NCBI GenBank assembly: GCA_023133595.1
Contig: JAGLWF010000004.1
Span: 42,917-106,916 of the forward strand
From: Nanobdellota archaeon
GTDB taxonomy: Archaea; Nanobdellota; Nanobdellia; Woesearchaeales; WJKV01
Reading direction: 5' to 3'
DNA length: 64,000 bases
Below, one piece after another: positions 13,201-59,369 of the stretch (the first letter of the stretch is position 1; each line of letters begins with the position of its first letter). Made by a program: the position numbers and the translations under genes. The notes beneath the pieces are model-generated. The model saw nothing but the letters and a program-made list of their open reading frames with translations, ran no database searches and was not told the DNA's origin.

Positions 13201-13248
13201 AATAATATATTATATGATATAAATCATATATATACTTTTTGGAAATAA

Positions 13249-13352
13249 GTATGGGCATAGCACCAAGCGTAGCCTTTGACTAAACGCACCAATAATATAG
13301 AATCGTTTTTATGAGCAATATTATACTCGTGCAAAGCGTGCTATGCACATAC
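13249..13352 (+). mobile_element. MITE-like palindromic element, copy 1 (104 bp)
   Basis: TIR GTATGGGCATAGCAC/GTGCTATGCACATAC; 8-bp duplication GGAAATAA at 13241-13248 and 13353-13360. Confidence 0.85.
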
Positions 13353-13383
13353 GGAAATAATTCTTTTTAAACATTCAGCTGCA

Positions 13384-14592
13384 TCAGTCCTGCTCTAAAC
13401 CTTTTTTCTTTATTTCAGTCTTTCTTTTATCTCTCTCGTGGTTTCTTCTTGCACGTTTTTCCATTGCATCTAGTAGGCGCGCGATCTTAGGATGTCCTTC
13501 TGCAAGACTATCGAGAGCTTCCTCGATGTGTATCTGGCCGTACATAACTCTTCTGATATTCCTGAAGACTATGAAATCTTTCTCCCATCCTTTTCCTCTG
13601 AAATAGTTTGCAAGGGAGTTTGTTGTTGTCACGCTTTCAACAGCCTCGCCAACATAGTCAAGGATCTCTTCTATAGGCCTATCATCTCCTTTTGCCTGTG
13701 CAATTCCTCGCAGACGGCCTGCCTTAAAATTTCTGGAATCCTTGCTTAATGCTGTTGTTATAAGATCCCCAAGAGCGATATAGGGAATTCTTCCTTCATA
13801 CCCTTTATCCTTTGCTATTCGATGGTACATATACTCTGCTTCCTGCGCACTGATCTCAATAAGGCTGCCGATTGTATTCATTATCTTCACTTCCAATTTA
13901 CCTTCTTTGCTTGCCTGCTCTTCATAGTATCCATGGACAACTCCAGATGCAAAAGCTATGACATTCTTCAATGCACTGCTTAATTCCAGTCCAAGAATAT
14001 CAGGATTGTCTTGCAGTGTTGTGAATCTATGGAGAGTAAATGTATCTTTAAGTAGTTCATGATACTGTTTATTAGGAAACAAGGTCGCAATCGCAGTGCT
14101 TGTGGCAAGAAAAGGTTTCTCTCTTATCTCCCTTGCAATGTTTGGTCCTGCCAAAGAAGCGATCCATGGTCTATTGTAACTTTTCAGTTCTTGTATAAAG
14201 ATCTCGTGCATAAGATCAACACTATGCTTTTTTTCATCGTAAACTATACCTTTTGCAACATTAAGAATGTAACAATCATGCGGAAAATACGCTGCAAAAG
14301 TATGAGCAGTCGCTCTCATATGTGCAGACGGAACAGCAAATATTGTAAGATCAGCACTTTGAGCATCTATAAATGCAGCTTCAGGCCATATTGCAGCACT
14401 GTCTTGATCTAGAAGTGGTCTATTTCCAATTGTCATTCTTGGACCATGAATCTTTATATTATAACCCGGATAAGTAAATCCTTTTTCTTCAGGATACCTC
14501 TCTGGGTCCTGCAGCATACCGCAGATAGTAGAACCCCAGCTGCCATTACCTAGAATCAGAATGTTTTTGATGGGTTTCAGTTGCTCTGTCAT
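13384..14592 (-). CDS. gpsA: NAD(P)-dependent glycerol-3-phosphate dehydrogenase, bacterial type
   Basis: ILGNGSWGSTICGML; VAKGIV; SLAGPNIAREI; LELSSALKNVIAFASGVVHGY. Confidence 0.85.
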   Translation of the reverse strand: MTEQLKPIKNILILGNGSWGSTICGMLQDPERYPEEKGFTYPGYNIKIHGPRMTIGNRPLLDQDSAAIWPEAAFIDAQSADLTIFAVPSAHMRATAHTFAAYFPHDCYILNVAKGIVYDEKKHSVDLMHEIFIQELKSYNRPWIASLAGPNIAREIREKPFLATSTAIATLFPNKQYHELLKDTFTLHRFTTLQDNPDILGLELSSALKNVIAFASGVVHGYYEEQASKEGKLEVKIMNTIGSLIEISAQEAEYMYHRIAKDKGYEGRIPYIALGDLITTALSKDSRNFKAGRLRGIAQAKGDDRPIEEILDYVGEAVESVTTTNSLANYFRGKGWEKDFIVFRNIRRVMYGQIHIEEALDSLAEGHPKIARLLDAMEKRARRNHERDKRKTEIKKKGLEQD

Positions 14593-15838
14593 TGATACTC
14601 ATCCCTTCTTCTTCGAAATGATCTAAACGTGAAGCATAATATGCAATGATATGTTTTCTTCTTCTGTTTCGGGTCAGGGTGCCATTGCATGAAAAGATAG
14701 CACCTCTGAACGGAGATGCAAACACTAGCATTCCCCTATTAAAAACATCAACAATATCCCCTTCAATATGTCTAGATTTATATCCTCTATTAATATAACT
14801 TTCCCTTAGTCTCTCCATCTCAGCAAGGACATGCCTCTTTTTTGTCTCTGTTGTCTCTTTTAATGTCATAAACTTTTGGAATGCTCTGGCAACAAGGTCA
14901 GACGGCAATATTTCTATTAACCTGCCGACTTCTCTTCTCAGTTCAACTGATAATGATGTCTTAAGCTTTTTTCTGTGCTTTTTTGCATCTCCAAAAGAGA
15001 CAAGATGCGGTTTTCCTACATTCATATAAAAATTCCCTAGTGTTGTTCTTCTTGGATCGTAGAATGCTTCTCCGCCATTCATCACGATAGAAGCGCTACG
15101 TTCCAATCCCCGCACATAACACTGCGCATGGATCATTGGAAGATCAAGACCATAATATTTGAACCATTCAATTGCATATCTTATAATTTTAGGATTAAAC
15201 AGAGAAGGTTTTCCTTCTTTTCTTAAGCTTTTATACTTCTCAAAAGTTCTGAAATGCCTGTCTTCAGCTACTCTTTCATAATTTATCGCTGCAGTCACAA
15301 AATAAATATCCACTCCTGCCATGACCTGCGCAGCAAGAAGGATGTTCAGCACAGCCTCGTTAAATTGCAGCAACTTTCCAGTATCAGAACGTTTACCTTC
15401 TGGAAAGAACAAGCAATCCTCTTTCTTGCCAAGCAATTCGTCTGCAATATATTGTTTTTCTGCTCTTAAAACGTCTTTGTATGATTTTCCAGGAACATTT
15501 CTAGGATCACGATAGATCTTGAATGCTTTGGATTTTCTAAGTCCTTCTCCCATCAATGGAAAATCAATCAGATTGTCACCAGCTGCAATCGCAGGAGGAT
15601 TTCTATCTGTCTTTCTGTCAATAATATAAGGAAATATTTGATAATCAATATGGCTCTTGTGCATTAACATATAGATGACAATATCATTGTTTGACAAACC
15701 TGCAAGATTCTCAAGACCTTTGACCTCTTTTTTATCAAACATCTTTGTTATAAATTTGCCTGCGCGATCTCTCTGGATGTCATAATAAGAAGGATCAAAA
15801 CGATGCTCAATGTCTGTGAAATCCATCTTATCTGCCAT
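14546..15838 (-). CDS. PlsB-like glycerol-3-phosphate 1-O-acyltransferase
   Basis: MHKSHIDYQ (HX4D-like block) and CLFFPEGKRSDTGKLL (FPEGxRS block). Confidence 0.75.
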   Translation of the reverse strand: MADKMDFTDIEHRFDPSYYDIQRDRAGKFITKMFDKKEVKGLENLAGLSNNDIVIYMLMHKSHIDYQIFPYIIDRKTDRNPPAIAAGDNLIDFPLMGEGLRKSKAFKIYRDPRNVPGKSYKDVLRAEKQYIADELLGKKEDCLFFPEGKRSDTGKLLQFNEAVLNILLAAQVMAGVDIYFVTAAINYERVAEDRHFRTFEKYKSLRKEGKPSLFNPKIIRYAIEWFKYYGLDLPMIHAQCYVRGLERSASIVMNGGEAFYDPRRTTLGNFYMNVGKPHLVSFGDAKKHRKKLKTSLSVELRREVGRLIEILPSDLVARAFQKFMTLKETTETKKRHVLAEMERLRESYINRGYKSRHIEGDIVDVFNRGMLVFASPFRGAIFSCNGTLTRNRRRKHIIAYYASRLDHFEEEGMSINDRATETHQKHSDSR

Positions 15839-15984: not shown

Positions 15985-16524
15985 ATGTCGGCAATCTTAG
16001 AGTTAACAGTTCCAGTAACAAGAGAGAAACCAATTGATCTTTACGCAGATCCTAGTATCAGAGCTACTTCTCCTGAAAATTTGAATCTGATAAGAAAAAT
16101 AAAAGATATCTACATAGCTGCGCATAATCTTGGTGATGAAGAGTTCAATGTGATAATGGATCTGAGAGAAAAAGGTTTTGATGTGAACGAACTTCAGGAA
16201 CTAGGACTTCTGAGATTTGTAAGTAACAGTGGATACAGACCTATGATCCGGGAAAATATCCTTGCCAGATGCGAACCAGAAGATATGGTTGGTGTTGTTA
16301 TTGAATTCAATGGATCACGCTATCGAATCGCTAGTTATTCCAATGGACCGTTAAATCCAGATGCAAAAGTAAGAGTTGTAAGATCCAACAGAACATTGAT
16401 GGGTCTTGGTGCTTTCAAAGAAACAAGCATGACAGTCGGTCCGTTATCAAAGAATCCAGAGAACGGTCTTGAACTGATTGCACTTATTCTAGAACAGCAA
16501 GGACAATTGCCTAAAAGAGCATGA
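15985..16524 (+). CDS. Hypothetical protein
   Basis: 179-aa ORF, no recognised motif. Confidence 0.6.
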   Translation: MSAILELTVPVTREKPIDLYADPSIRATSPENLNLIRKIKDIYIAAHNLGDEEFNVIMDLREKGFDVNELQELGLLRFVSNSGYRPMIRENILARCEPEDMVGVVIEFNGSRYRIASYSNGPLNPDAKVRVVRSNRTLMGLGAFKETSMTVGPLSKNPENGLELIALILEQQGQLPKRA

Positions 16525-16532
16525 AACAGCAA

Positions 16533-16636
16533 ATATATGCATAGCACCAAGCGTAGCCTTGCAATAAACAGTCCAGTTTACTAGACTCGGCTTCTAAATC
16601 GTATTTTTGATCTAGCAAAGCGTGCTATGCGTGTAC
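16533..16636 (+). mobile_element. MITE-like palindromic element, copy 2 (104 bp)
   Basis: ATATATGCATAGCAC...GTGCTATGCGTGTAC; flanks AACAGCAA (16525-16532) and AACAGCAG (16637-16644), 7/8. Confidence 0.85.
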
Positions 16637-16680
16637 AACAGCAGGCAAAGCTTAAATATCTGTCCTTCATGGATTAGATT

Positions 16681-17688
16681 ATGAAAGAGGCAATGTATTA
16701 CAACAAATTAAAAGATGATATTGTGCATTGCCAGCTATGTCCTCAGTTCTGCATGATCAAACCAGGTGAAACAGGGAAATGCAGAGTGAGAAAGAATCAA
16801 GATGGAACATTGATTTCTCTTGTGTATTCCCAACCATGTTCTGCAGCAATAGATCCGATTGAGAAGAAACCATTGTTTCATTTCTTTCCAGGTTCTAAGA
16901 CTTTTTCAATATCAACAGTCGGATGCAACTTAGACTGTAAAGCGTGCCAGAACTGGGAGATCTCGCAGGCAAAACCAGAAGATGTTCCTGCAAAAGAGAT
17001 GAAGCCAGAAGAAGTTGTTGAGGAGGCATTGAAACACAACTGCGATTCTATTGCATACACTTACATTGAACCTTCAATCTTTTACGAGTACGTCCTGGAC
17101 ATTGCAAAATTAGCCCGGCAAAAAGGATTGAAAAACATAATGGTGACAAACGGTTTCCTGAATCCAGAACCAATAAAAGAATTGTATCAATACATTGATG
17201 CTGCAAACATTGACCTTAAAGCATTTAGTGATGAGTTTTACAAAGATATGTGCAAAGGAAGACTGCAGCCTGTTCTTGATGCGATAAAGCAGATAAAACA
17301 GATGAATGTGTGGATTGAATTGACAACATTGATCATTCCAGGAAAGAATGATGATAAAATAGAAATAAGACAGATGTGTGAATGGATAAAAGCAAATGTT
17401 GGTGACGACGTGCCAATCCATTTTTCCAGGTTTTTTCCGTGCTATAAATTGTTGAATATAGAGCCAACACCGATAGACACGCTAAAAAAATGCTACGAGA
17501 TTGCAAACAAAGCTGGTCTGAAATACATCTATGTCGGCAATGTCGTGGACACGCACTTCCACCAGACAGTCTGCCCAAAATGCGGCATGGAAGTCATCAA
17601 CAGATCACATAGATACGAACTCGAGGAAGTGCATCTGGAGAACAGCTGCTGCAAATTCTGCAAGACTAAGATAGCTGGTATGTTTTAA
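16681..17688 (+). CDS. amrS: AmmeMemoRadiSam-type radical SAM protein
   Basis: CQLCPQFC...GKCRVRKN...FSISTVGCNLDCKACQNWEISQ. Confidence 0.85.
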   Translation: MKEAMYYNKLKDDIVHCQLCPQFCMIKPGETGKCRVRKNQDGTLISLVYSQPCSAAIDPIEKKPLFHFFPGSKTFSISTVGCNLDCKACQNWEISQAKPEDVPAKEMKPEEVVEEALKHNCDSIAYTYIEPSIFYEYVLDIAKLARQKGLKNIMVTNGFLNPEPIKELYQYIDAANIDLKAFSDEFYKDMCKGRLQPVLDAIKQIKQMNVWIELTTLIIPGKNDDKIEIRQMCEWIKANVGDDVPIHFSRFFPCYKLLNIEPTPIDTLKKCYEIANKAGLKYIYVGNVVDTHFHQTVCPKCGMEVINRSHRYELEEVHLENSCCKFCKTKIAGMF

Positions 17689-22533: not shown

Positions 22534-24165
22534 ATGGATATCGAAGCTGAAACACCATCAAACGGAAGAATAAAATCGAATTCTGACGGAGAGGAATTAG
22601 TTTTTCCAACACAAGACATTCCAATGGGATTACCAAAAAATGTTCAATCTCTTTGTCCAGAATGTACAAAAGTTATTGATGCAGTAATGTACGAAGAAGA
22701 CGGAAAAGTCTTCATGAAAAAGACATGCTCAGAGCATGGAGAGTTCAAGGATTTCATCAGCGGAAATGTAGAGTTCTGGCTGAAGATGGAACGTACTAGT
22801 TTTGAAGACGGACCTGGTTTTGGGAATCCCCAGACAAAGTACACAGGCAATTGTCCTACTGATTGCGGTATCTGCGATCATCACCTAAGTAATGCGTGTT
22901 TAGCAAATATTGATCTTACTAACAGATGTAATCTAAATTGTCCTGTATGTTTTGCAAATGCAAACAAAGCAGGTTATGTATGCGAACCTTCTCTTGAGGA
23001 TGTGCGAAAGATTGTCAAGACATTAGTCAATACAAAACCTAATCCATGTACAGTTGTACAATTTTCAGGTGGAGAACCAAGCATCCATCCTCAAGTCATT
23101 GAAATTATGAAAATGGCTAAAGAGGAAGGTATGAAATTTATGCAGATGGCTACAAATGGTGTCCGTCTTGCGGGTGATGATGGGGAGTTTGCAAAAAAAT
23201 GTGTTGATGCAGGTCTGCAGCAAATTTACTTGCAGTTCGATGGTACTAACGAGGAAGTTTACAAGAAAACAAGAGGAAATGGAAAACTTTGGAAAATCAA
23301 ACAGAAATGTATTGAGAACTGTAGAAAAGCAGGTCTTAAAGTAGTCTTTGTTCCAACAATCATAAAAGGTGTTAATGACAACCAAGTCTGGGACATTCTG
23401 CAATATGCAATTGATAATATCGATGTTATGAATGGTGTTAGTTATCAGCCTGTTTCATTCTGCGGCCGTCTGCCTCAGGATGAAATTATGAATACAAGAT
23501 ACACTATGACAGATATTGTCGAAGCTCTCGAAAGAGGTAGCAAAGGTAAATTAATGACAATGAGAGACTGGTATCCCTTATCATTCGGATCACCAATGTC
23601 AAAATTATTGTCTGCGAACAGTGGCAAGCCTGTCATGACAATCACAAACCACGCGCAATGTGGTGCTGGTGCATACATACTTGTCAACAGAGATACCAAA
23701 GAAACAATTCCGTTATCAGCAGTGTTTGATTTTGAACGTATCATGCTAGAGATAAACGAGCTTGTAAAGAAAGCTAAAACCTCAAAGCTAAGCAACATGA
23801 TCACAAAAATCAAAGGTTTTAATATTCTAAGAAAGTATTGGAAAGCAGAGAATGCACCAGAAGATCTTAGCTTCATGACATTCATGAAGACGCTTGAGGG
23901 TATGCTGAATGGAAACAGGGTAAAAGACGAGAAGTGGATACTGCTTGTTGTCCTAGGTATGCATTTCCAGGACAAGTACAGCTTCAGACTAGACCGTGTC
24001 AGAAGATGTGTCATCCACTACGGTGCACCAGACGGTAAGATCTATCCGTTCTGCACATACAATGCTGGTCCGACTTTCAGGGAGAAGATTGAGAAAGAAT
24101 ACAGCATTCCTTTAGAAGAATGGAAGAGACGAAACGCAAACGTGCAGGATTTCAAACCTGAATAG
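22534..24165 (+). CDS. tes: Radical SAM protein, tetraether lipid synthase (Tes)-like
   Basis: LCPECTKVIDA; NCPTDCGICDHHLSNACLANIDLTNRCNLNCPVCFANANKAG resembles the MJ0619/Tes family. Confidence 0.8.
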   Translation: MDIEAETPSNGRIKSNSDGEELVFPTQDIPMGLPKNVQSLCPECTKVIDAVMYEEDGKVFMKKTCSEHGEFKDFISGNVEFWLKMERTSFEDGPGFGNPQTKYTGNCPTDCGICDHHLSNACLANIDLTNRCNLNCPVCFANANKAGYVCEPSLEDVRKIVKTLVNTKPNPCTVVQFSGGEPSIHPQVIEIMKMAKEEGMKFMQMATNGVRLAGDDGEFAKKCVDAGLQQIYLQFDGTNEEVYKKTRGNGKLWKIKQKCIENCRKAGLKVVFVPTIIKGVNDNQVWDILQYAIDNIDVMNGVSYQPVSFCGRLPQDEIMNTRYTMTDIVEALERGSKGKLMTMRDWYPLSFGSPMSKLLSANSGKPVMTITNHAQCGAGAYILVNRDTKETIPLSAVFDFERIMLEINELVKKAKTSKLSNMITKIKGFNILRKYWKAENAPEDLSFMTFMKTLEGMLNGNRVKDEKWILLVVLGMHFQDKYSFRLDRVRRCVIHYGAPDGKIYPFCTYNAGPTFREKIEKEYSIPLEEWKRRNANVQDFKPE

Positions 24166-59081: not shown

Positions 59082-59140
59082 CAGATCACCTCGTTTGTGT
59101 TACTGTAGAAAGAACGTCTATAAAAATATTTCTATTTTTT

Positions 59141-59355
59141 GTATGTGCATAGCCATTGCTGCCAAGTGTAGCTTTCTGACTTTTTGTGCAAGATACATAG
59201 ACTCGGCTTCCAAAGCAGAAAACAATGCTAGCGAAACGCAGCAATGGCCCAAATATGCATAGCACGCTACGTTAGCTCATTAAATCTTATCATTAAACCG
59301 AGTCTATGTTACTTGATCAATTACTATAAGACTATGCTAGGTGCTATGCATATAC
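59141..59355. mobile_element. MITE-like palindromic element, dimeric copy (215 bp)
   Basis: Ends GTATGTGCATAGC/GCTATGCATATAC; 8-bp duplication TATTTTTT at 59133-59140 and 59356-59363; two inverted half-units. Confidence 0.85.
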
Positions 59356-59369
59356 TATTTTTTAAGAAA

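Follow-up and report, generated by a model that had tools for sequence, protein, structure and literature searches.

Prokaryotic MITEs, such as QMITE2 (reviewed in PMC10969869) and MITEAba12, are short, non-coding, intergenic elements that form stem-loops and occur in dozens of copies, with terminal inverted repeats and direct repeats of 7–9 bp (PMC10969869). The element described here, found in a 64,000-nucleotide stretch of archaeal DNA (the window), is likewise short, non-coding, intergenic and multicopy, with terminal inverted repeats, directly repeated flanks and a stem-loop. It differs, however, in that many families keep the fold of its core, including the constant loop length, the bulge on one side only and the G·A loop, and in that its ends vary by genome and a parent IS was not found in the stretches fetched. 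REP and REPIN sequences with RAYT, whose palindrome is immediately preceded by a GT(A/G)G head (PMC2817692), resemble it as scattered, imperfect hairpins that commonly form inverted pairs and have compensating changes, whereas the element has 8-bp target duplications, terminal repeats and a length of ~100 bp, and the most copy-rich genomes tested have no Y1 transposase. The IS6 family (PMC7986276) shares the 8-bp duplications, and element ends in one genome (G319) begin with GG and contain cTGT, but the window elements begin with GTATGTGC and DDE_Tnp_IS240 was not found in the window genome (G000), G083 or G319. No paper on such elements in DPANN archaea was found in the literature searched.

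The stretch from 16525 to 16644 is a genuine MITE copy. The first-pass annotation had called it a second copy of exactly 104 bp between flanks identical at 7/8 positions, and direct reading bears this out, with the following parts:

16525..16532: left 8-bp target duplication, AACAGCAA (from reading and the family-level test)
16533..16636, + strand: the 104-bp element (copy 2)
16539..16547, + strand: left stem arm, GCATAGCAC (covarying helix 1)
16548..16550, + strand: one-sided bulge, CAA (consensus CNA; no variation at C or A among 36 diverse copies)
16551..16557, + strand: GC-GTA-GC, left side of the inner loop
16583..16590, + strand: central box, AGACTCGG
16615..16621, + strand: GC-AAA-GC, right side of the inner loop (GNA in most copies)
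16622..16630, + strand: right stem arm, GTGCTATGC (from covariation)
16637..16644: right 8-bp target duplication, AACAGCAG, 7/8 (from reading and the family-level test)

The asymmetric bulge reported earlier in the left arm does exist, although its description was slightly wrong: the one-sided bulge is the CAA, and GC-GTA-GC pairs with GC-AAA-GC to leave a 3 × 3 internal loop with GC pairs on either side, copy 2 having GTA/AAA rather than GNA/GNA. The left target copy begins directly after the TGA stop (16522–16524) of an ORF at 15985–16524, and an AmmeMemoRadiSam radical SAM gene starts at 16681, after the end of the element. A contig search with this neighbouring radical SAM protein gave matches in bacteria only.

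The blocks that were said to be common to copies 1 and 2 can both be read in each. The left block, GCATAGCACCAAGCGTAGCCTT, is exact at 13255 and 16539 and recurs with three mismatches at 59328 on the − strand, where chance predicts no occurrence, and the right block, GCAAAGCGTGCTATGC, is present in both copies.

13249..13352, + strand: copy 1, with target duplication GGAAATAA at 13241–13248 and 13353–13360, 8/8 identical

The window genome is a 1.37-Mb draft of 38 contigs that yielded 42 BLAST matches to the element, and the exact 9-mer GCATAGCAC occurs 94 times in it, compared with two occurrences of a backward control. Stretches fetched from this genome contain ~46 near-full copies with cores of 92–94 bp, the copy list holding 47 rows of which one was a chance match; these counts rest on searches together with the fetched stretches. 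Flanking 8-mers were identical at 7/8 positions or better in 17 of 43 copies testable in the 104-bp frame, against a shuffled mean of 0.48 and a maximum of 3 in 2000 shuffles, and flank identity drops outside positions 1–8. The target duplication is therefore 8 bp long and real, and at the level of the family it is not due to chance. The copies end in terminal inverted repeats (consensus GTATGTGCATAGCAC...GTGCTATGCACATAC) and carry no transposase gene. With its tens of copies, short length, inverted ends, 8-bp duplications and lack of coding capacity, the element is supported as a non-autonomous, TIR-bearing DNA element, a MITE as first suggested.

A sister family (n = 21 copies) differs from the first in its stem, GCCATTGCTGC/GCAGCAATGGC, but matches it in length and inner boxes, and its copies lie mostly beside or inside a first-family copy. 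One such composite is present in the window:

59133..59140: left target duplication of the composite, TATTTTTT
59141..59355: composite copy, comprising a 13-bp end GTATGTGCATAGC, a sister hairpin (+) and a first-family hairpin (−)
59152..59248, + strand: sister-family hairpin, stem GCCATTGCTGC/GCAGCAATGGC
59251..59355, − strand: copy 3 of the first family, joined to the sister hairpin
59356..59363: right target duplication of the composite, TATTTTTT

Duplications of at least 7/8 were found outside the whole pair in 7 of 13 joined pairs (null 0.5), so that a composite pair moves as one unit, and six of those seven are in a single frame whose left end is GTATGTGCATAGC. Both the 104-bp units and the ~215-bp composites of two opposite hairpins end in GTATGTGCATAG and have 8-bp duplications. 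As the left end of the composite consists only of a 13-bp inverted repeat before the sister hairpin, movement does not require each end to have an intact hairpin to itself. Nested double copies occur at two loci (C6 and C12) with an identical internal junction. Beside the rearranged copy on C12 (L061:405-1920) lie genes for a nucleotidyltransferase-like protein and a small alpha-helical protein, which by eye may be a toxin-antitoxin pair of the MNT/HEPN type.

The fold extends well beyond this genome. A first covariance model, built from 28 copies, detected relatives in 16 of 352 genomes of the order, and a second, built from 36 diverse copies and spanning 104 positions, detected a module of 100–108 bp in 33 of the 352, in ~16 families. 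Four carriers have 40, 37, 71 and 43 copies, 71 being the maximum. No match was obtained with the covariance model in the 98 viral stretches scanned out of 112 fetched by motif, a result that speaks against viruses as carriers and doubles as a specificity control for the model. Outside G000 and G319, duplications identical at 8/8 positions were found in only 2 of 42 copies (null 0.4), which is near chance level, and mobility there consequently rests on copy number; movement in those genomes may be old. Copies from two families lie in the same gap between SepF-like and ZPR1-like genes, named by eye (L062 in G000 and L126:1020-1124 in G083), and their target duplications differ (TTCAATTC and TAAAATAT), so that the two insertions look independent. 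Copies between another shared pair of genes, again in two families (L087:1501-1605 in G123 and L136:1089-1190 in G341), represent either a shared old insertion or a preferred site.

Read on the strand of copy 2, the conserved anatomy begins with a variable stem of 9–14 bp, followed by a CNA bulge on the 5′ side only, GC/GC pairs, GNA opposite GNA, GY/RC pairs and a loop of 54–60 nt whose central box approximates AGACTCGG. Covariation-aware alignment, the check proposed in the first-pass annotation, showed the fold to be kept: stem sequences differ between genomes, yet 92.6% of cells are paired, with 181 double-sided changes (0 of 500 shuffles). The covariation score is 0.734, against 0.241 ± 0.017 when shuffled and ≤0.18 for slid controls. 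G·A occupies columns 22/94 in 34 of 36 copies, and A·G occupies columns 24/92 in 25 of them. In copies from G341, G339 and G036, GA stands opposite GA and the flanking pairs change jointly (AT/AT, AC/GT and GC/GC) with the mismatch constant, and in one copy (G102) ordinary pairs replace the GA mismatch. Such a mismatch reads G·A along one strand but T·C along the other, and this gives the fold a definite polarity. The earlier suggestion that this polarity is of importance is supported in part, in that copies from many families retain both the CNA bulge and the G·A/A·G loop on a single strand, and the positions surrounding them show compensating changes.

These observations bear on whether the element is simply a MITE whose core reflects shared descent and horizontal transfer, its fold being a by-product of inversion at the ends. 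The symmetry of the stem would follow from inverted ends and target duplications, and the patchy distribution (33 of 352 genomes) also fits, but the loop, whose length is 56.3 ± 1.4 nt, drifts in sequence to near-background identity between families (36%, a figure inflated by the alignment, against 28% shuffled), whereas the bulge and inner-loop block retains 74% and the box 50%, and loop length is kept as well. Nor does a by-product explain why the inner pairs covary around a G·A mismatch that stays. That the shape is kept across many families although the sequence is not points to more than an ordinary transposon leftover. Further evidence against such a by-product comes from G319, where the same core lies within different ends. 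The hairpins of this genome are mostly opposite pairs inside elements ended by GGCTCTGTCCCGAAT or GGCTCTGTCCTAAAT, ends (GGCTCTGTCC) that are unrelated to the GTATGTGCATAG of the G000 elements, and these elements have 8-bp duplications of their own, perfect in 8 of 14 (null 0.15). Ends and core thus seem to be separable, and the persistence of the core within differing ends suggests that selection acts on the core directly, which makes the simple MITE reading rather doubtful. G319 also contains short, palindrome-rich elements with GGCTCTGTAGAAAAT ends (L284-L291), ~204 and 408 bp long with flanking repeats of 8–9 bp, and no such hairpin was seen in these.

Selection could instead act on a transcript, with the module being a structured RNA, either a mobile non-coding RNA or a hairpin for transcript processing. 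The covarying stem and conserved G·A loop would suit this, and many copies, including copy 2, lie between co-directional genes. RNA helices evolving by compensating steps, however, normally contain several per cent G·U, and the 1188 stem cells include 11 of G·T and 5 of A·C, so that G·T is below 1%. The apical 56-nt loop has no clear excess of structure on either strand (mean z −0.1 to −0.6), copies between co-directional genes show no preferred orientation (13/20 and 12/22, with genes taken crudely as the longest ORF), and no Rfam match above the gathering score was obtained over the element copies in four loci (L017, L018, L022 and L025). Taken together, these results favour a fold that acts at the DNA level and leave a structured RNA distinctly unlikely, although strong selection for an RNA stem might also keep G·T scarce. 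DNA can form stable GNA/GNA and tandem G·A loops.

A DNA fold brings to mind two described types of element. REP/REPIN-like hairpins moved by a Y1 (HUH) RAYT transposase would account for imperfect hairpins, inverted pairs, dozens of copies and compensating changes, but the reading is largely refuted and very improbable, since the 8-bp duplications and terminal repeats are foreign to that group (PMC2817692) and no GT(A/G)G head lies outside the stem in the alignment of copies. The Y1 transposase was also rejected as a mobiliser, PF01797 (Y1_Tnp) being absent from G000, G083, G319 and G277, which have 37–71 copies each; across genomes, Y1_Tnp occurs in 8 of 26 carriers and 9 of 32 non-carriers, indicating no link with carriage of the module. 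The attC sites of integrons are folded single strands with one-sided bulges, an unpaired inner loop and a variable loop. The element has a similar one-sided bulge, inner loop and variable top, and could be imagined as a site that an integron-type integrase recombines in its folded form, yet this is extremely unlikely: RYYYAAC/GTTRRRY boxes are lacking (no GTTRRRY core box is present in the alignment), ends vary by genome, copies are scattered rather than in cassette arrays, and 8-bp duplications are present.

Two other candidate mobilisers were rejected. A resident IS6 transposase as driver is opposed by the lack of any DDE_Tnp_IS240 (PF13610) match in G000, G083 or G319, and a neighbouring gene in that role by a comparison of the ORFs around copies in many genomes, among which no gene recurs with the copies. 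A transposase with matching ends was not found, nor was a long parent element with GTATGTGCATAG ends in the fetched stretches. Three contigs of G000 (C34, C9 and C25) begin ...AAGCTTTAATAGCACC, within or just beside a copy; these copies have a common left flank, and the repeat that runs on from there is absent from the rest of the assembly, suggesting that a longer parent relative may have been lost in assembly.

The element is probably, then, a non-autonomous DNA transposable element, of the MITE or foldback kind, with a structured module at its core. A transposase acting in trans, probably a DDE enzyme, would cut at the terminal repeats of 13–15 bp and join them to a target with an 8-bp stagger. 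The core would be kept for its fold at the DNA level, either a hairpin or a cruciform in which the G·A pairs are sheared, and a protein that aids persistence or replication of the element may recognise this fold on one strand. A more specific version can be put forward only tentatively, namely that the structured module is a folded single strand, with its bulge and sheared G·A pairs, placed on unrelated transposon ends in different archaea, and would thus be a hairpin parasite or cargo that swaps mobilisers and has a dedicated binding protein.

The gene content marks the host as an archaeon, its genome encoding proteins that resemble tetraether lipid synthase, archaeal uracil-DNA glycosylase and PorA. 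Genes for a bacterial-type glycerol-3-phosphate dehydrogenase and a PlsB-like acyltransferase lie in the window (13384–15838 and 22534–24165), these bacterial-type lipid genes coexisting in G000 with the tetraether lipid synthase-like gene.

Short mobile elements can thus attain 40–70 copies in small archaeal genomes. Conservation of a fold without conservation of sequence is familiar for RNA but unusual for the interior of a transposon. The covariance model of 104 positions allows further copies to be found and companions to be tested, and if the fold does act at the DNA level, these elements would provide a natural replicated experiment, in archaea, on the recognition of a folded DNA strand.
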